Of a DNA stretch of 35,073 nt, positions 1,294-27,384 are shown piece after piece; the first letter of the stretch is position 1, and each line of letters starts with the position of its first letter. The DNA is from Candidatus Poribacteria bacterium. GTDB taxonomy: Bacteria > Poribacteria > WGA-4E > WGA-3G. Position numbers and translations under genes: made by a program. Where the stretch lies: positions 1 to 35,073 of the forward strand of contig VXMD01000007.1 of assembly GCA_009841255.1 (NCBI GenBank). Reading direction: 5' to 3'. Under the pieces are notes generated by a model. The model saw only the letters and a program-made list of their open reading frames with translations, was not told where the DNA came from and ran no database searches.

Positions 1294-4200
1294 TTAATCT
1301 CGAATGTCAACAGATGAGCTACCATCCGTCCCTTTCCTAACATTAATCTTGACGGGCAAACGTCTTGTTAATTCCTGAATATGGCTGATAAGGAAAATGC
1401 TGCGTCCCTGCATACGGAGTCCTTCCAGTGCGGCGATAGCGATGTCAAGCGTTTCTGTATCGAGTGTGCCGAATCCTTCGTCGAGGAACAACGAGTTGAG
1501 TTGTGCACGTCCGCGACTCAGATCCGCAAGCGCGAGTGCCAAAGCGAGACTTGTCAGAAACGATTCCCCGCCAGAGAGCGTTTCCACAGGACGTTCCTCG
1601 TTGGCGTTCCATCGGTCAATAACCGTCAAATCACCGATTCCCTCAACTTTAAGCTGGTAACGCTCAGAGGTGAGATAACGCAACTGCACATTGGCAATAC
1701 TGCCCATCTGCTTGAACATAATCTCCAGTGCAAAATCACGCAAATCGTTTCTCGGAATTGTGTCCTGTAATCTTTTCCAACGGTTCAACTCCTGTTCTGC
1801 CTCACTGATTTCAGCACCGAGTGCCTGACGTTTTTCAAGCGCATCTTTCAAATTGTCGATTCTTTGCTGTTGCGCGCCTCGCTCTTCCAATTTTGCTTGG
1901 AACTGTGCTTCGACTTCCTGAACTTGGGTTTCAATTGCCTCTAATACCTCCGGATCAAATGGGTTCTCCTGAAACCGAGTACGTAATTCGGTAATCACTA
2001 ATTCAAGAGCCTGCTTTTCATTTTCATGAGCATCAATTCGATCAGTCAGTTCTTGCATCTGTTCCTCATCCCGGAAGGCGTTATCGTGTGCTTCTGGTGA
2101 ATCAAATTCTGCATCACTTAACTTCTTAAAGTAAGTATCGCGCGCCGTCTTAAGTTTTTGGGAGGATTCTTCATCCTGTTCCTCACAATGCCCATGGGTC
2201 GTCTGCTTTTGCGTGAGCAGATCCCGGCTTTTCTGTAATTGACGGTTGACTTCCTCACGTTCGTTCTCTTTCGCCTGCAGTTCCGCTTCCAACTTATCAA
2301 TAGCGGCGTTAATCTCATCTTCCGTTTCGAACCCACCCGTTTTATCACGGACGGCGCTGAGATATGTTTCCCCATTGCATCGATACCGGTCTATCTCGGC
2401 GTTTAGGGTTTCGCGGCGTTCTTTCAAACCTTTAAGATTCGTTTGGTCTGCCTCGATACTGGTGTCAAGCACTTGAAGTTGTGTCTTTGCGCTGTCCCGT
2501 TCCTGCTCATGCTTTCCAACTTCCTCAATCTTATCATCAAATTGCTCTACCGCCGCAGCAGGAGCAATACCGTGAAAAGTATCAGGCATAGATTCCCAAA
2601 AACGGGTTTCTGTCGCTGCAATATCCGCATGCCAATCCGCAATAATATTGCTTAAATCGGTCAACTGCGTTTCAGTATCGTTTAAGTCCTTCGTCTCGCG
2701 CTTGATATCTTTTTGACAGGTTTCGAATTGTTGTGACACCATTTGAAGGGCATTTGATGCCTGTGCGTGGGTCTGTTCAGCTTCCGTGATGCCTGCGATA
2801 GTCGTATCCGCTATGTCGAACTGTTTAGATGCCCATTTTGACGAAACACCAGCGTCCGGATAGATCGCCTGCCATTCAGTGAAGGACTTCGCGGCTTCGT
2901 CACGCAGGGTTGCTATCTGTGCTGTGCATGTTTTAATCTGATCCGCAGTGTTATGACGATTCTGTTCAGTTTGAATTTGCTGAGTCTTCAAATTTTGTAG
3001 CTCTGCTTGCGCTGCATCTGCCTCGGTCTCTGCAGCTGCTAAAGTCTCTTTTACACGCTGAAGTTGTTCCTCACTTTCAGGTTCCACAACCTCAGCGGAC
3101 GGATGCTCTGTCGCGCCACACACCGAACACGGTTCTCCGGGTTGAAGGCGTTGACGGAGTTGATTGATCGGGTTCGCCCACATCGCAGATTCTCTCTCTA
3201 TTTCACAACGTTGAACGCCTTCAGCGGCTCCCTGACACGCTTTGTTTTGACGTGCTAAGTCGGTTTCGATCTGTTCAAGTTCTGCATCCAGTGCCGCTGT
3301 AGTATCATTTAATGCGCTTAGTTGATTTTCAGCATCCGCCAAGTCGTCTTGGGTGGCTTCATATTTCTGTGCAATGGGTTGTGCCTGAGATGCCTGCTGC
3401 TTTCGGTCAGTCCATTCCTCGTGGGTGCCGGTTGCCAACAATTTGTTCAATTGTGTAGTGGCATCCTCTAACGTCGTCTCTGCCTCTGCTTTTTCGGAGA
3501 GACGTTTTTGCCGAGCGTGAGTTAATTTCTTAATTTCCCGTTTCAATGCGGATAGATTCTTTTCGGTGTTTGTTTTATTCGCCAACTCCGTTTCTAACCG
3601 CTTTTCTTGCGAACCGAGTTCCGCGTGAAGACCGGTCGCTCGCGTAAGACGTTGTTGTCGGTCGAATGGGAGCGGATTCTCATCTAAAAAGGTTTGTGCT
3701 GCCTGAATCTTTTCGTGCAACTGAGATTGCTCAGTCTGTCTGTCGTCTAATTGGCTTGACAACGTGTCAATTTGATTATCCAATTCTGCCAGATCTGAAG
3801 TCTGTCTATCTGCTTCAGCGAACTGATCCGCTGCGCGCGCTACATCTAATTTGGCATCACGATAGCGCGGCATTTTCTGAGCGTGTTCCTGAGATGTGGT
3901 TTGATAGGCTTTCTCTTTTTCGTCATAAAGAGTTTGATCAGTTTTCACCTGCGCTTCTGTCTGGGTTTTCTCGGTTGTTGCTGTATCGAGTGCTTTCTCT
4001 GCATTTTCGAGATCGGATTTTGCGGTATCATACGTCTGCTTTTCAGGACGAAGCCGGTCAGCACGATTCGCGTTTTCGAGCGTCGTTTGAAGTGTATGAA
4101 TCTCGGGTTGCTGCTCAGTGAGTTCATTTTGACGATCTTTTGAAGATTGGAGTCTCTCAAAATCGACTGTGCGTCCCTCTTCGCGCTGCTTTTCATCTTG

Positions 4201-4938
4201 AATGTGTTGGCTTTGCGTTCCTAATGCATCGGCTTCCGTTTGTAAACTCTCAAGTTCTGTTTCGGCTTCTGTAAGTTGCTCCTGAGAGGCTTCCGGAATT
4301 TTGTTCAGTTTGTCGAGAACATCGGCATTCGCTGCCTCAACTTCGTTAACTTTCTCATTTAATGCTTGCCGAAGTAGGTCGTAGATGTGGATACCCGCGG
4401 TCGCTTCCAGAATCTGTCGTCTATCCTCCTGCTTTGCCTTCAAGAACGCCGCAAACTCGCCCTGTGCGAGCATAACGGAACGTCTGAAAGCATCAAAATC
4501 AAGCCCTAAGATAGATTCAACCTCTTCACTGACCGTTCTTTGACTTGAACCGAGAGTTTTACCTTTACCGCTCAATTTATCGCTAATTAACTTGTTATCT
4601 TCTGCATAAGACAACCGCACCTCTGCAGGACTCCCGCGGCGCAGGGACCAAACAGCAACATAACGCGTTTCGTTTGCGATAAAATGGACCTCAACAAATC
4701 CTTCCGTTTCCCCATGGCTGATGAGATGTCTCGGATGCTGACTTCCCGTTCCACTCAAGCGAGGCGTTTTCCCGTAGAGCGCGACACAGATTGCATCCAA
4801 CAAAGTGGTTTTTCCTGCCCCTGTTGGACCGGTAATCGCGACAAGCGAAGCATCACCTAACGGCGGGTTTTCAAAATCGAGTTCAATGGGTTCACGAAAA
4901 CTATTCAGGTTTTTAAGTTTGAGTCTACATAATTTCAT
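1294..4938 (-). CDS. sbcC: Exonuclease SbcC (SbcCD nuclease ATPase subunit)
   Basis: A 1214-residue SMC-like ATPase, the Rad50-type partner of SbcD in the complex that opens DNA hairpins and trims double-strand ends. The N-terminal Walker A (GPTGAGKTT, 37-45) is followed by a very long, Glu/Gln-rich coiled coil. The zinc-hook CxxC (C604, C607 in 'EPCSVCG') sits at the exact middle of the chain, as expected for the antiparallel coil. The C-terminal lobe has the LSGGESF signature (about residue 1120) and Walker B 'FLDEGFGTLD'. Length is in the usual 1000-1250 range. It lies 97 nt downstream of sbcD on the same strand, so co-transcription is likely. Its start abuts a TTTTAAT..CTTGCGG repeat boundary at 4941-4959, which may supply its ribosome site. 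The palindrome-rich surroundings are natural SbcCD substrates (inference). Confidence 0.96.
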   Translation of the reverse strand: MKLCRLKLKNLNSFREPIELDFENPPLGDASLVAITGPTGAGKTTLLDAICVALYGKTPRLSGTGSQHPRHLISHGETEGFVEVHFIANETRYVAVWSLRRGSPAEVRLSYAEDNKLISDKLSGKGKTLGSSQRTVSEEVESILGLDFDAFRRSVMLAQGEFAAFLKAKQEDRRQILEATAGIHIYDLLRQALNEKVNEVEAANADVLDKLNKIPEASQEQLTEAETELESLQTEADALGTQSQHIQDEKQREEGRTVDFERLQSSKDRQNELTEQQPEIHTLQTTLENANRADRLRPEKQTYDTAKSDLENAEKALDTATTEKTQTEAQVKTDQTLYDEKEKAYQTTSQEHAQKMPRYRDAKLDVARAADQFAEADRQTSDLAELDNQIDTLSSQLDDRQTEQSQLHEKIQAAQTFLDENPLPFDRQQRLTRATGLHAELGSQEKRLETELANKTNTEKNLSALKREIKKLTHARQKRLSEKAEAETTLEDATTQLNKLLATGTHEEWTDRKQQASQAQPIAQKYEATQDDLADAENQLSALNDTTAALDAELEQIETDLARQNKACQGAAEGVQRCEIERESAMWANPINQLRQRLQPGEPCSVCGATEHPSAEVVEPESEEQLQRVKETLAAAETEADAAQAELQNLKTQQIQTEQNRHNTADQIKTCTAQIATLRDEAAKSFTEWQAIYPDAGVSSKWASKQFDIADTTIAGITEAEQTHAQASNALQMVSQQFETCQKDIKRETKDLNDTETQLTDLSNIIADWHADIAATETRFWESMPDTFHGIAPAAAVEQFDDKIEEVGKHEQERDSAKTQLQVLDTSIEADQTNLKGLKERRETLNAEIDRYRCNGETYLSAVRDKTGGFETEDEINAAIDKLEAELQAKENEREEVNRQLQKSRDLLTQKQTTHGHCEEQDEESSQKLKTARDTYFKKLSDAEFDSPEAHDNAFRDEEQMQELTDRIDAHENEKQALELVITELRTRFQENPFDPEVLEAIETQVQEVEAQFQAKLEERGAQQQRIDNLKDALEKRQALGAEISEAEQELNRWKRLQDTIPRNDLRDFALEIMFKQMGSIANVQLRYLTSERYQLKVEGIGDLTVIDRWNANEERPVETLSGGESFLTSLALALALADLSRGRAQLNSLFLDEGFGTLDTETLDIAIAALEGLRMQGRSIFLISHIQELTRRLPVKINVRKGTDGSSSVDIRD

Positions 4939-4940
4939 AC

Positions 4941-5044
4941 TTTTAATTTTTTCTTGCGGTTAAATCTATTTATAGACATAGCACTCCGCTGGAGTGCGGT
5001 GCCTTGAAACAACAATTCTATAGACATATCACCCCTACGGGGTG
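4941..5044. repeat. Boundary motif plus twin-hairpin repeat, copy A
   Basis: The 4941-4959 segment matches the TTTTAAT..CTTGCGG boundary of the long intergenic repeat. It is followed by a twin-hairpin element: GCACTCC-GCT-GGAGTGC at 4981-4997, then 'TATAGACATA', then CACCCC-TAC-GGGGTG at 5030-5044. The second hairpin runs into sbcD and contains its stop codon. A second copy with the same order and spacing lies at 27304-27384, after the DUF433 gene. Confidence 0.85.
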
Positions 5045-6237
5045 GGGAAAAGATTGAAACCCCCTTCTGAGCTGTCTGAAACCATCTGGAGCAATTCACT
5101 AAATGTCTGTGCTAAGGTTTCATCGGGGAGTTCACCATCGAATTTCGCCTTGTGAAATTGCGCAAAGATTTTTTCGGGACGTTCCATTTCCTCAACAGGA
5201 ATTACCGGTCCTTGTGTTGCCTCTGGCAGTTCAATTTCAACGCTCAGCACCTCGCCGCCGCGATCGCCAAAGGCTTGCCGAATTTCATCGTTGATGCCCG
5301 TTTGAGGCTTGCTTAATTTTAGTTTGATTTGGATGTACTTACCGCCCCAGTTACCCGTCATCGCTCTTGAAAGGATAGCGGCTTCATCACCCTCAACAGT
5401 ACACAGCTCCTTGAAAACAGGAATCTCAATATCTTCATCTCGCACCAGCGATCCATCATCAGACAATTCCAGCAGATACACTTTCTTGGAATAGCCTGTC
5501 TCGTTGAACCGCAGTGGGATTGGTGAGCCTGAATATCGGATCGGGTAATCGGTGTCCTTGATTGTTTGTGGTCTGTGGAGATGCCCAAGTGCGACATAAT
5601 TCACACCGTCCGGAAAATCAGCGGCACGAATAGCCGTTGCGCCGCCAATCTGGATATTTCGTTCGGAATTGGTTTCTTTCCCGCCTTGAACGAAGAGATG
5701 TCCCATTAAAATTTTAGGGAGTTCTGCAGGCATATAGGCGACACAATCGGCGTAGAATGCCTTAAGCCACTCCCGGTACCGATCGTTTCTTTCCGCCTCC
5801 GTTTGATATGAGAAGTGTCGAAGTTCGCTTTCTAAGAGGTATGGAACCGCTGCGACCATCAATCGCGGGTTGTCGGGTGGAAACGGTAAAACACATTTGG
5901 CAGGCTCAGTGGCAAGTCCAACAACATAAATTTTGCCCATTTCGAGAAATTCTCGTGGGGCTTCCAAGTGCCGAGCGGAGTCGTGATTGCCTGCGGTAAT
6001 CACTGTATACGCATCGGTTTCATCGAAAAGGCGGTAGAGAAACCGATAGTAGAGATTCGTTGCTTCTGCTGATGGGAGGGAGGTATCGAAAATATCGCCT
6101 GAAACGAGGAGGAGCTCGACCTTACGTTTCTGAATTGTTTCAAGGAGCCAGTCCAAGAATTGTTTGTGTTCGTCAAGTCGGGAGCGTTCGTGGAGTCGTT
6201 GTCCGATGTGCCAATCGGCGGTGTGTAGAATTTTCAT
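5035..6237 (-). CDS. sbcD: Exonuclease SbcD (SbcCD nuclease subunit)
   Basis: A 400-residue Mre11-type metallophosphoesterase that supplies the nuclease active site of SbcCD. Phosphoesterase motifs are clear: D8 and H10 in 'TADWHIG', D48 in 'SGDIFD', N84-H85-D86 in 'AGNHDS', and later 'GHLFVQGG' and 'ALGHLHRPQ' histidines. The reading frame is open upstream to 6354, but I chose the ATG at 6237 because the universally conserved MKILHTADWH N-terminus begins there; the extra 39 residues look like translated leader. The last residues and the TAG stop (5035-5037) lie within a CCCCTACGGGG repeat hairpin, so the extreme C-terminus (…FPTP) is repeat-derived. A TTGAAA-17-TACGAT promoter sits about 55 nt upstream. 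Confidence 0.95.
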   Translation of the reverse strand: MKILHTADWHIGQRLHERSRLDEHKQFLDWLLETIQKRKVELLLVSGDIFDTSLPSAEATNLYYRFLYRLFDETDAYTVITAGNHDSARHLEAPREFLEMGKIYVVGLATEPAKCVLPFPPDNPRLMVAAVPYLLESELRHFSYQTEAERNDRYREWLKAFYADCVAYMPAELPKILMGHLFVQGGKETNSERNIQIGGATAIRAADFPDGVNYVALGHLHRPQTIKDTDYPIRYSGSPIPLRFNETGYSKKVYLLELSDDGSLVRDEDIEIPVFKELCTVEGDEAAILSRAMTGNWGGKYIQIKLKLSKPQTGINDEIRQAFGDRGGEVLSVEIELPEATQGPVIPVEEMERPEKIFAQFHKAKFDGELPDETLAQTFSELLQMVSDSSEGGFNLFPTP

Positions 6238-6465: not shown

Positions 6466-7659
6466 ATGAGTAACAACGGACGGACCTTCACGGCAGAACT
6501 CGAAGAGATGGAAGTCTACGGCGACACACGGGTCGGGTGGGATGAGAATACACCCGTCAATGAGACCGTTGATGCGGAAGGAAATCTCTTCCCCGGCGAA
6601 AGAGGGTTCGGCGTAGCAGATCCCACCTCGCCCAAACGCCGCGTTTACGACGACCCAGAGGTCGAGGCACTACGCGAAAAGTTACGCGAGCACAACGGTA
6701 TTCGCGGGCTGGAAATTTGCGAGCCACACGAAACCGAGAAGATCGCTCGAATTTTCCATCGCGACGGTTTCGCTGTCGTCAAAGACCTCCTCAACGCCGA
6801 GCAACTTGCACAGTGGAGAGCAGGATGCGCCGAAGCCCTACGCGACATCCTTTCAATACCGGGACCCGAGAACAGAAAATATACAACGGAGACCGGACGG
6901 TTGCCACACCGCTATAGTTACGGCACCTCTTCCGCTTCAAGGCAGATGCTGCACCATTCCGCATGGGCAAGCATGATAGATCTGCCGACAACAACGCCGA
7001 TCGTTAAAGAAATCTTCGGTTCGTCAGATTATCGCGTCTGGGGTTCAGGCGGCGACCTCTGCCTCCCCGGCGCAGTAGAGTACCAACACTTGCATTCCGA
7101 CGGTAGGGATCCACAGCATCCCACTGAAGCACGCATCCGGCAAGCGGAACGCCTCGGCCTTCAACTCCATAGAGACGAGAATGGAAATCTTGATGTCCCG
7201 TCACAAAAACTGGTTATGGAGATGACCCCGCCGACCGTAACGATTAACTTCATCATGTGTGATCTGACATGGGAAAACGGTCCTATCCGCCAGATTCCGG
7301 GATCCCATACACTGCAGCAGCATCCGCCACCTCCGGGCGATGAACCCGATTGGATGAAACATTCGACCCTCGTCGGCGCAACTGCTGGTTCCGGTGTGTT
7401 CCGGGATAACCGCGCATGGCACGGAGCAACCCCGAACCTCTCAAGAGAAATTCGCGCACTGCCAAACGTTGAGTACGCCGCGCCCTGGCGTTCACAACAC
7501 GGTTTCAGTAGGATTATGCCGCACGAAATTTGGGAAACCCTGACACCGCACGCTCAGAAGTTATGTGAATGGATCAAGGCAGACCCGGGAGTCTGGCCCC
7601 CCGGTGCCGGTATTATGCATCCGCTCTCCAGCAAGCGTGCAGAAGCCCAGAATTCTTAA
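6466..7659 (+). CDS. Phytanoyl-CoA dioxygenase (PhyH) family protein 1
   Basis: A 397-residue Fe(II)/2-oxoglutarate-dependent oxygenase of the PhyH superfamily, which hydroxylates small molecules with release of CO2 and succinate. The metal triad is visible as H210-x-D212 ('HLHSDG') and distal H319 ('AWHGAT'), with R330 eleven residues on as the likely 2-oxoglutarate-binding arginine. The N-terminal 80 or so residues are polar and family-specific. The start at 6466 has AAGGAG at 6451-6456; the open frame extends upstream to 6334 but lacks a ribosome site. A Gfo/Idh dehydrogenase follows after 210 nt of repeats, and the same pairing recurs at 9275-11726. The substrate is unknown. The stop codon is at the boundary of a repeat (TTAATTTACCTTGCGG, 7656-7671). 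Confidence 0.88.
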   Translation: MSNNGRTFTAELEEMEVYGDTRVGWDENTPVNETVDAEGNLFPGERGFGVADPTSPKRRVYDDPEVEALREKLREHNGIRGLEICEPHETEKIARIFHRDGFAVVKDLLNAEQLAQWRAGCAEALRDILSIPGPENRKYTTETGRLPHRYSYGTSSASRQMLHHSAWASMIDLPTTTPIVKEIFGSSDYRVWGSGGDLCLPGAVEYQHLHSDGRDPQHPTEARIRQAERLGLQLHRDENGNLDVPSQKLVMEMTPPTVTINFIMCDLTWENGPIRQIPGSHTLQQHPPPPGDEPDWMKHSTLVGATAGSGVFRDNRAWHGATPNLSREIRALPNVEYAAPWRSQHGFSRIMPHEIWETLTPHAQKLCEWIKADPGVWPPGAGIMHPLSSKRAEAQNS

Positions 7660-7860
7660 TTTACCTTGCGGATTTTTAATTTTACCTTGCGGTTCGGTCA
7701 GGTCGGTTTGAAGAATAACATGCCTTTACGTATATCCGCCTGCGCCGATGTTGCAGGCTACAAGTTTGGTTTGATGTTTAAGCAAAGAATTCTCAACTTA
7801 CCTTCTGCGCCGTTGTTGCAGGCTACAGGTTTGATTTGACGTGTAAAAGAAAACAGGAGG
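7656..7860. repeat. Intergenic repeat mosaic after the first PhyH gene
   Basis: The boundary motif appears twice in a row (7656-7671 and 7673-7692, both ending ACCTTGCGG). It is followed by the TTCGGTCAGG block, 'CCGCCTGCG' and 'TTGCAGGCTACAAG' (about 7736-7765). A second 'TTGCAGGCTACAGG' unit lies at about 7815-7828. No gene fits in 7660-7869. AGGAGG at the 3' end (7856-7861) is the ribosome site of the next gene. Confidence 0.75.
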
Positions 7861-7869
7861 AAATAAGAT

Positions 7870-8907
7870 ATGTTAAACTGGGGCGTTATGAGTGCAGGCG
7901 GCATCGCCTATGTCTTCTGCAACGGGATGCGTTTCACGGGCTCCGGGCAGATCCTTGCCGTTGCGAGTCGCACCCAATCCAAGATGGATAGACTCGTCAA
8001 CGATTTCGGTATCCCGCGCCAATACAACGATTACGCAGACCTGTTGACGGATGACGATATCGACGCTATCTATATTGCCACAATCCATCCACTTCATGCG
8101 GAGTGGGCGATAAAGTGTGCTGAAGCCGGGAAACACCTCCTCGTTGAGAAACCGATCAGCATGAACCACGCCGAAGCCGCGGCGATGGTAGACGCGGCAC
8201 GCGAAAATGACGTGTTTCTCATGGAAGCCTTCATGTATCGCACCCATCCACAGGTCGCGAAGGTGGTCGAACTGATACAGGACGGCACGATCGGCGAGGT
8301 CCTTGTTATCCGATCCACTTTCAGTTACCGATCGAATTTTAACCCGCAAAGCCGAATTTTTAACCGCGAAATGGGTGGCGGCGGTATCCTTGATATCGGA
8401 TGTTATACCGCTTCAATGACGCGCAAAATGGCGGGTGCCGCTGACAATAAGTTGTTCCTGAACCCCGTGGAAATAAAAGGGAACGGCAAAATCGGTCCGA
8501 CGGGTGTTGACCATATCGCAGCAGCGACGCTGAAGTTTGAAAACGGTATCATTGGGGAGATCATAGCTGCCGTTGAATGCAGCGTTGGGAGCAGTGTCTT
8601 TATCTACGGCACAGAAGGCTCGATTACCATCCCAAGCCCTTGGTTACCTTCATCGCTCTGTCGCCACGCAAGGGAGCCGTTACCCCTCGATACAGTTTTC
8701 CCGTCAACACAAATTATCGTTGAATCGCATCAGCGTCGGGAAGAAATTACGGTCGATGTTGATCAGGATCTCTTTACCTACGAGGCGGATACAGTCGCGA
8801 ACCATATCGCAGATCGGCAGGCACCGGCGATGTCTTGGGACGATACGCTCGGCAATATGCAACTACTGGAAGCTTGGCTCGCAGAGGTAGGCGTTACTCA
8901 TTTTTAA
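7870..8907 (+). CDS. Gfo/Idh/MocA family oxidoreductase 1
   Basis: A 345-residue NAD(P)-dependent dehydrogenase. The N-terminal Rossmann fold begins 'WGVMSAGGIA', and the family's EKP motif is at residues 93-95 ('LLVEKPISMN'), where the lysine serves in hydride transfer. 'GGGGILDIGCY' in the C-terminal domain resembles the dihydrodiol-dehydrogenase/glucose-fructose-oxidoreductase branch. Members oxidise sugars, inositols and related polyols. A strong AGGAGG ribosome site precedes the ATG. The stop codon (8905-8907) is part of the TTTTTAATCTTACCTTGCGG repeat boundary, so the last residues are repeat-encoded. It probably works with the dioxygenase upstream and possibly the isomerase-like barrel at 183-944 (inference). 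Confidence 0.9.
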   Translation: MLNWGVMSAGGIAYVFCNGMRFTGSGQILAVASRTQSKMDRLVNDFGIPRQYNDYADLLTDDDIDAIYIATIHPLHAEWAIKCAEAGKHLLVEKPISMNHAEAAAMVDAARENDVFLMEAFMYRTHPQVAKVVELIQDGTIGEVLVIRSTFSYRSNFNPQSRIFNREMGGGGILDIGCYTASMTRKMAGAADNKLFLNPVEIKGNGKIGPTGVDHIAAATLKFENGIIGEIIAAVECSVGSSVFIYGTEGSITIPSPWLPSSLCRHAREPLPLDTVFPSTQIIVESHQRREEITVDVDQDLFTYEADTVANHIADRQAPAMSWDDTLGNMQLLEAWLAEVGVTHF

Positions 8908-9181
8908 TCTTACCTTGCGGGTCGGTTAGGTAGGTTTGATAGATAAGGTGTCTCTCCGTAGATCCGCCTGCGTGTTTTTGCTTGGGCGTTTCTGCGTATT
9001 GTTGCGGGCTTGGTTTTCGCTTTTAATTTTACCTTGCGGAGAAACGACGCGATTTGAGATTTCACACTTTCTGTATTCGAGCCGCCTGCGTGTTTTTGCA
9101 GGCTTGGTTTTCGTTAAGCAATTTGCGGTATTAAATATGCACATTGTACATCAATAACGGGCGGGGAAACCCCGCCCCTAC
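8901..9181. repeat. Repeat mosaic filling most of the 8908-9274 gap
   Basis: The boundary TTTTTAATCTTACCTTGCGG (8901-8920) overlaps the upstream stop codon. CCGCCTGCGTGTTTTTGC occurs at about 8964 and again at about 9082, with a second boundary copy (TTTTAATTTTACCTTGCGG) at 9021-9039 between them. The region ends with a GTAG-type REP hairpin, GGGCGGGG-aaa-CCCCGCCC followed by CTAC (9159-9181). No gene is seen in 8908-9274. Confidence 0.8.
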
Positions 9182-9274
9182 GGGGTCTACATCCAACGAC
9201 AACACGGAAAATTGCCAATTTATTATTCAATATTGCTTAACGTAGAATTTCAGAATTATTCAGGAGTAACACCG

Positions 9275-13563: not shown

Positions 13564-14097
13564 ATGGACACACCTAACCCAGCGAACGCTACCCTTTATC
13601 AAATCATCCCTAGCGACGTCTGTTTCTCATGTGATGTCTGCTGCCGATTTTTAGAAGCAGACAGTCCACTCGCGCCCATCTTCACCGAAATAGAGACGGA
13701 AAAAGCCATTGCCCACGGTGCCGATCCCGCCCTGTTCCGTCCACAACCAGACGGAAAGAGTGCCCAAATCCAGCTAAAACCGTACAACGATTTCTACATC
13801 TGTCCGTTTTTTGAACCGGAGACGAGCCACTGCACGATCTATTCAATCCGTCCGCTTGACTGCCAACTTTACCCATTTGCCCTCATGCGCAGTGAGGATG
13901 GAAACTCGGTCGTGCTCGGCGTAGATACACTCTGTCCGTTTGGCGAAGCATACCTCGAAACGGAAGCTTTTCAGAAGCATATCCGTCACGTCATCGATTA
14001 CGTCGAATCTGAACCGGTCACGGCGCAGATACTCGCCAACTGGAGCTTGATCGGCGATTACCAAGACACGGTGAAAATTGTCCATACCTTTTTTTAA
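13564..14097 (+). CDS. YkgJ-type cysteine cluster protein
   Basis: A 177-residue protein with eight conserved-looking cysteines: C20, C23, C26, C27 ('CFSCDVCC'), C80, C90, C100 ('RPLDCQLYPF') and C124. The pattern is that of the YkgJ/UPF0153 zinc- or iron-chelating family; the biochemical function of the family is not firmly known. I start it at the ATG at 13564. The frame is open back to 13486, but those 26 residues come from the REP-hairpin region and are probably untranslated. The TAA stop (14095-14097) lies inside the repeat boundary motif at 14091-14111, so the terminal 'FF' is repeat-encoded. Confidence 0.82.
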   Translation: MDTPNPANATLYQIIPSDVCFSCDVCCRFLEADSPLAPIFTEIETEKAIAHGADPALFRPQPDGKSAQIQLKPYNDFYICPFFEPETSHCTIYSIRPLDCQLYPFALMRSEDGNSVVLGVDTLCPFGEAYLETEAFQKHIRHVIDYVESEPVTAQILANWSLIGDYQDTVKIVHTFF

Positions 14098-14283
14098 TTA
14101 TTCCTTGCAGGGAAATGACGTGCGTTCTATCTATCAAGGACGTTTCTTAAATCCGCCTGCGTGTTTTTGCGAATCAGAATCAACGGTATGAAGCCCGTGT
14201 GGGCTTCAAATCAACGGTATTCATGCCGTGTGGCATTCCCCGGGGTATTTCTGCGTATTGTTGCAGGCTACAATTTTTTATTT
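14091..14283. repeat. Long intergenic repeat interrupted by a smaller tandem hairpin repeat
   Basis: The boundary TTTTTAATTATTCCTTGCAGG (14091-14111) and CCGCCTGCGTGTTTTTGC (about 14153-14170) are followed, after an interruption, by TTTCTGCGTATTGTTGCAGGC (about 14247-14268). In the copy near 8964-9007 the same two blocks are only 7 nt apart. The interruption carries two tandem AATCAACGGTAT units (14178 and 14209), each followed by a GTGT-loop hairpin: TGAAGCCC/GGGCTTCA (14189-14208) and ATGCC/GGCAT (14223-14236). Confidence 0.75.
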
Positions 14284-22111: not shown

Positions 22112-22131
22112 TTTGGTCCTGTGGGTTCTTT

Positions 22132-22188
22132 GTACCGCAAACTGTTAGTTTGCGGCTCAGACTGGCACAAACTAACAGTTTGTGCTAC
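22132..22188. repeat. Inverted pair of REP-like hairpins (BIME-like)
   Basis: Two perfect hairpins face each other: CCGCAAACT-GTT-AGTTTGCGG (22135-22155), preceded by GTAC, and GCACAAACT-AAC-AGTTTGTGC (22165-22185), whose last C begins CTAC (22185-22188). The inner 13 nt of one is the exact reverse complement of the inner 13 nt of the other, so they are inverted copies separated by 9 nt, like bacterial interspersed mosaic elements. They may also act as a korB 3' stabiliser. Confidence 0.8.
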
Positions 22189-22294
22189 AACAGACTCCTG
22201 TTTAAGCCAAACCTACGTTAGGTTAGTGCTAACAAACGTTCGGTCCCCTCAATTCAAAGTTAATTGGCTCCCATTTTTTTGCAGGATTCCAACA

Positions 22295-27280: not shown

Positions 27281-27303
27281 ACCTAACGCAAGTTGCCATC
27301 CAT

Positions 27304-27384
27304 TTGACATAGCACTCCTACGGAGTGCAGTGGACCTGAATATACCATTTCCTATAGACATACCACCCCTACGGGGTGGGGAAA
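27304..27384. repeat. Twin-hairpin repeat, copy B
   Basis: GCACTCC-TAC-GGAGTGC (27312-27328), spacer with 'CTATAGACATA', then CACCCC-TAC-GGGGTG followed by GGGAAA (27364-27384). Order, spacing and flanks match copy A at 4976-5048. No gene lies in 27281-27450. Confidence 0.8.

Follow-up and report, generated by a model that had tools for sequence, protein, structure and literature searches.

In the available text of the papers that describe them (PMC3733652 and PMC2817692), GTAG REPs are palindromes of 20 to 40 bp that occur at high copy number, lie mostly between genes, carry GTAG at the foot of a short hairpin, and are associated with a RAYT (Y1 transposase) gene, and they have been reported to supply a TAG stop codon to flanking open reading frames (PMC3733652). 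The MITEs covered by the accessible portion of PMC2229807 (Correia/NEMIS, RUP, ERIC, and YPAL) are non-coding, intergenic elements of about 100 to 200 bp that form transcribed structures and leave filled and empty sites between relatives; their fusion with reading frames is known, and some contribute sequence to the frames. Escherichia coli REPs, as cited in the available part of PMC12306157, are found within 15 nt of stop codons and have been proposed to act on translation. The REP literature searched yielded, as far as its available text goes, no report of a REP that abuts start codons or carries a Shine-Dalgarno (SD) sequence, and elements with one end locked to start codons are not described for MITEs in the accessible text of PMC2229807. 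At the level of titles and abstracts, we also found no literature on repeats of Poribacteria or on SD sequences provided by repeats, and a search that covered few subscription papers returned no repeat that is locked to start codons with an SD sequence of its own.

The DNA analyzed here (the window, 35,073 bp) is the whole of one contig (C7) of the 5.73-Mb genome (G000) of a sponge-associated Candidatus Poribacteria bacterium. The motif found at positions 8901 to 8920 is present in six copies in the window at up to 3 mismatches (starting at 945, 4940, 7673, 8901, 9020, and 14091), compared to 0 in 100 shuffles, and in 440 copies genome-wide at up to 2 mismatches, compared to 0 for the reversed pattern. 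A dispersed, non-coding repeat of ~100 bp, in which no open reading frame function was seen, has this motif as its fixed terminus. From the motif end, the unit consists of the motif, a spacer of ~45 bp, a hairpin (hairpin A) with compensatory base changes, and then CTACGGTTTTG; in 52 aligned copies, the strand that reads outward through the motif is 5'-GTAGCCTGCAACAACGGCGCAGGCGGAT..(spacer)..CCGCAAGG(T/A)AAAATTAAAAA-3'. At one pair of hairpin A (columns 10-25), TA is found in 26 copies and CG in 21, and the observed pairing was reached in 0 of 2000 shuffles; this hairpin could act as DNA or RNA. Conservation stops ~10 nt past the hairpin, so that a unit with a short hairpin loop measures ~100 bp; the loop is enlarged in many copies. 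The strict hairpin is accompanied by the motif in 26 of 27 cases (1 of 27 is without it), and a search with the body alone, in which the motif was not used, recovered 100 copies, nearly all of which have an intact motif. A second conserved stem proposed in the spacer (stem B) is paired in one variant, without covariation, and was dropped.

This repeat resembles the GTAG REPs, as they appear in the available text of PMC3733652 and PMC2817692, in its high copy number, its short hairpin, its GTAG at the hairpin foot (24 of 52 aligned copies), and its mostly intergenic location (18 of 96 copies overlap a predicted gene, compared to 87% of random positions). However, the ~100-bp unit is longer than those palindromes and has an asymmetric, unpaired terminus, its stop codon is TAA and comes from the opposite end, and it lacks the association with a RAYT gene. 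Like the MITEs in the accessible text of PMC2229807, the unit is non-coding, dispersed, and within the 70-to-300-bp size range, and its sites are filled or empty between relatives; unlike them, it shows no terminal inverted repeats, with ends (TTTTTAATTTTACC and CTACGGTTTTG) that are not mutually inverted when compared by eye. It shares with the E. coli REPs, as cited in the available part of PMC12306157, a position near stop codons, but here the stop codon comes from the repeat, whose terminus is found at start codons as well. A search of the window against Rfam gave no match besides two tRNAs.

The terminus reads differently on the two strands. Read away from the repeat, it is CCGCAAGG(T/A)AAAATTAAAAA, an SD-like AAGG followed by an A-rich spacer; read into the repeat on the opposite strand, it is TTTTTAAT, which gives a TAA to the incoming gene (TTT-TAA). 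In the window, where all copies are in the plus orientation, the motif at 8901 to 8920 contains the stop (TAA, 8905 to 8907) of the gene at 7870 to 8907 and begins a copy whose hairpin loop is enlarged (8901 to 9019); a second copy (9020 to 9117) is directly joined to the far end of this one. The copy at 14091 to 14278, with 3 mismatches in its motif, similarly ends the gene at 13564 to 14097 (TAA, 14095 to 14097). A short form of the motif (7656 to 7671) holds the stop (TAA, 7657 to 7659) of the gene at 6466 to 7659 and precedes a full copy with a perfect motif (7673 to 7762), which has the best covariance-model score in G000. On the start side, the motif at 945 to 964 adjoins the start codon of the minus-strand gene at 183 to 944, reading CCGTAAGGAAAGATTAAAAA-ATG on the minus strand, and belongs to a copy (945 to 1040) made up of motif, spacer, and hairpin CCGCCTTCCGCTTCGCTTACAGACTACGG; a degenerate motif (4940 to 4959) lies one base from the start codon of sbcC (minus-strand gene, 1294 to 4938). 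A further copy, TACCTTGCGGGTCGATCAG..CCGCCTGCG..GCAGGCTACAATTT (1 to 108; repeat families D3, D4, and D8), is truncated by the contig start. The original prediction, that the motif contains the stops at 8907, 14097, and 7659 and in inverted sense follows immediately on the ATG at 944, is thus borne out by the window sequence. It had also placed a copy at 4941, in direct contact with the start codon at 4938; this copy is near the ATG but begins at 4940, one base off, and the ribosome-site sequence expected in the complement is AAGG at 944 but a degenerate AAGA at the 4938 copy.

The body of the 945-to-1040 copy is partly duplicated 137 bp on, as part of a 126-bp tandem duplication (962 to 1087 and 1099 to 1224, within 962 to 1224) with 137-bp spacing and 92% identity. 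The hairpin loop of the copy at 14091 contains an unrelated doubled repeat, AATCAACGGTAT..CCGTGTGG, at 14178 to 14238; similar units, and also GCTTGGGG..TTTTTGC units, are found in the loops of other copies, and loop length is very variable. Exact tandems of the motif with 21-bp spacing occur at C26:237720, C8:13251, C18:191080, and other places in G000 and can be compared to the pair at 7656 and 7673 in the window.

The placement of the repeat was measured in 1.23 Mb of G000, with genes called by our own simple hexamer-based gene finder, and the genome-wide enrichment at gene termini that was anticipated for the motif proved strong in this sample for both starts and stops. Among the copies that face a start, 25 of 54 lie within -4 to 0 of the start codon, compared to 72 of 2745 random intergenic positions (2.6%; Fisher P = 9e-24, which, like the other boundary P values given here, assumes independent copies, and related copies are not independent). 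Of these copies, 23 are exactly at position 0 (register 0), while other positions hold ~1 each. Among those that face a stop, 12 of 23 lie within -10 to 0, inside the gene end, and 10 use the motif's own TAA, compared to 82 of 2154 random positions within the same distance of a gene end (3.8%; P = 2e-11). In the body-only set, an ATG directly follows the repeat in 36 of the 100 copies, where 1/64 is expected (P = 7e-39). A leader profile identified a degenerate form at register 0 in 20 more genes that lack a called motif, compared to a mean of 0.2 at other registers. A boundary of a coding sequence is adjoined by the motif end in 37 of 68 cases and by the hairpin end in 1 of 67, showing that the boundary effect has polarity. 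Overall, the repeat is in register at 42 of the 982 gene starts in the 1.23-Mb sample, and the degenerate form is found at about 20 more, which is roughly 6% of starts and, by extrapolation to the whole genome, near 290 genes.

At these starts, the AAGG of the terminus, which is a weak SD sequence, sits 12 nt from the ATG (11 nt for AGGA), compared to a peak at 5 to 9 nt for native SD sequences. The native SD is lost at the repeats: AGGAG or GGAGG is found between -20 and -4 in 0 of 42 repeat-bearing starts, compared to 24% of other starts in G000. In the motif-independent search, AAGG is intact in 91 to 100% of copies in every positional class, so the SD sequence is not conserved more strongly in the copies next to start codons, and we rejected selection on the SD as judged by such an excess. 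The position of the repeat, its SD-like sequence, and the loss of the native SD suggest that it may help to start translation.

We also compared 30 of the G000 sites with those of relatives: of the species-site pairs, 34 carry the repeat and 75 lack it, and G022 and G028 are empty in nearly all cases. Relatives with an empty site mostly keep the start codon, and an SD sequence is found 5 to 10 nt away in most of their leaders. For example, three relatives that lack the repeat at site S10 have AGGAG at 7 nt, and G022 and G012, without the repeat at the 945 site, have GGAGG-type leaders. The sbcD and sbcC genes abut or overlap (ATGA), with no spacer, in six relatives, and the repeat comes between them in G000 and G010; overlapping pairs of this kind are uncoupled by it. 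Comparison of empty and filled sites did not reveal a target duplication, and changes in the flanking spacers are too extensive for one to be defined.

Orthologs without the repeat have other C termini for all three window genes that end in the motif, as the original prediction required. The gene ending at 8907 encodes ..GVTHF-TAA in G000, one residue longer than the ..GV(V/T/I)H-stop of 12 of 13 relatives; the protein of the gene ending at 14097 is shorter than in all seven relatives, by 7 residues for G017 and by 10 to 12 for the other six; and the tail encoded by the gene ending at 7659 is changed compared to relatives. At sites T3, T5, and T10, the stop lies at one position whether the repeat is there or not, and a replaced stop can thus leave the protein unaltered. 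The proposal of a single repeat family that terminates proteins when facing one way and assists their start when facing the other is supported: for the ends by the changed C termini, with the stop unchanged at those three sites, and for the starts as a prediction from the position of the repeat, its SD-like sequence, and the loss of the native SD.

Among 35 congeners, most have between a few and ~420 copies of the motif and one has none, while 24 genomes outside the genus have at most one copy each. A clade of the genus carries high copy numbers, and some congeners drop to 0 or 1. The covariance model gave at least 150 matches in each of G000, G010, G024, and G018, 148 in G001, 73 in G005, 40 in G012, 10 in G028, and 1 in G022, and no match in three genomes outside the genus. 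We found no mobilizing enzyme whose presence tracks copy number. A Y1/RAYT transposase was rejected as the mobilizer because its gene number fails to follow copy number across the genus: G013 has 250 copies and no Y1_Tnp match, G022 has no copies and five Y1_Tnp matches, and in G000 the motif is nearby at only one of six Y1_Tnp loci.

With moderate confidence, we favor the explanation that this is a mobile REP/MITE-like repeat with a boundary-compatible terminus, and that selection retains insertions by which a start or stop signal is restored. The repeat would have moved about within one genus of Candidatus Poribacteria, presumably spreading by transposition. Its terminus would serve at once as an SD sequence with an A-rich spacer and as a TTT-TAA stop, and the A-rich spacer would put AAGG within reach of an ATG placed right after the terminus, where ribosomes could use it. 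In a compact genome, with many genes that abut or overlap, an insertion at a junction would survive mainly if the displaced start or stop signal were restored; because the terminus is SD and stop together, we propose that the genome tolerates insertions where genes meet closely. Copies fused exactly to an ATG would persist, the native SD would then be lost, and selection would be the cause of the lock on start codons. Insertion and selection alone, however, would make the ATG-adjoining position no more common than acceptable positions upstream, and register 0 far exceeds these, an excess that seems to call for a degree of targeting or positive selection. Together with a hairpin end that does not abut stops, this excess suggests some preference in the joining of the motif end. 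The equal intactness of AAGG in all classes, its weakness as an SD sequence, and its long distance from the ATG count against the explanation, as does the failure to find terminal inverted repeats, a target duplication, or a mobilizing enzyme that tracks copy number.

A less likely explanation is site-directed insertion, in which the mobilizing machinery recognizes translation starts or a T-tract and the lock reflects target preference instead of selection. Register 0 is ~20 times more common than other tolerated positions, as this would predict, and several relatives without the repeat have a T-run at the junction (S0, S2, S11, S16, T5, T8, T10, and T12). In repeat-rich relatives, T-runs may have been left behind by copies that were lost, and most empty start sites in the nearly repeat-free G022 and G028 have no T-run; the case for a T-tract target is suggestive in the former and weak in the latter. 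As a target trinucleotide, CAT was rejected, since it precedes the motif in 35 of 41 start copies but in only 5 of 89 others and so is not, as such, the target. The enrichment behind the earlier idea that gene ends are targeted is real, but it does not separate targeting from selection after insertion. More doubtful is an element whose insertion is directed to translation starts and whose own ribosome binding site replaces that of the host at an exact register, in which case many genes of one bacterial lineage would be translated from element-borne sites.

It is slightly less probable again that the end sequence spreads by recombination between existing leaders, through gene conversion or template switching, whether or not the remaining repeat comes along, and not by transposition of whole units. 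The minimal leader of G008 at T9 (CCGAACCGCAAGGAAAATTTAAAAA-ATG), which has the motif without the body, fits this explanation, as do the exact 21-bp motif tandems and internally deleted copies (T11), whereas the intact motif in nearly all of the 100 body-only copies and the near absence of hairpins without it (26 of 27 have it) argue against it. Very improbable is a conserved, non-mobile cis-regulatory leader (an attenuator or riboswitch-like RNA) passed on together with its genes, because, despite a hairpin with compensatory changes upstream of start codons, presence at the same gene differs between close species, the repeat occurs in both orientations, at gene ends too, and next to unrelated downstream genes, and the window has no Rfam match besides tRNA.

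If selection on a mobile repeat is indeed the explanation, a non-coding repeat would multiply in a dense genome because its end repairs what insertion breaks, and the ribosome binding sites and protein C termini of a lineage would have been rewritten by a repeat. The Poribacteria repeat offers a route to testing selection against targeting in the placement of repeats at gene ends.

Other repeats are also present in the window. Paired short hairpin repeats at 4970 to 5050 and 27301 to 27384, ATAGACATA(T)CACCCC TACG GGGGTG and a relative with AGCACTCC..GGAGTGC, represent another dispersed family, which at 4970 to 5050 adjoins the sbcC leader. A 23-bp inverted repeat, TTGTACCGCAAACTGTTAGTTTG, lies at 22130 to 22190, and a similar sequence, ACAAACTGTTAGTTT, is found at an empty site of G028 (L157). 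Finally, GTAG-tagged hairpins of other sequence (GTAGGGGCG.., GTAGGTGCGG.., and GTAGGCACGC..) occur at 111 to 140 and 9154 to 9183 and at loci L091, L092, and L095; such hairpins are enriched in G000, lie near some Y1 transposase genes, and appear to be ordinary REPs.
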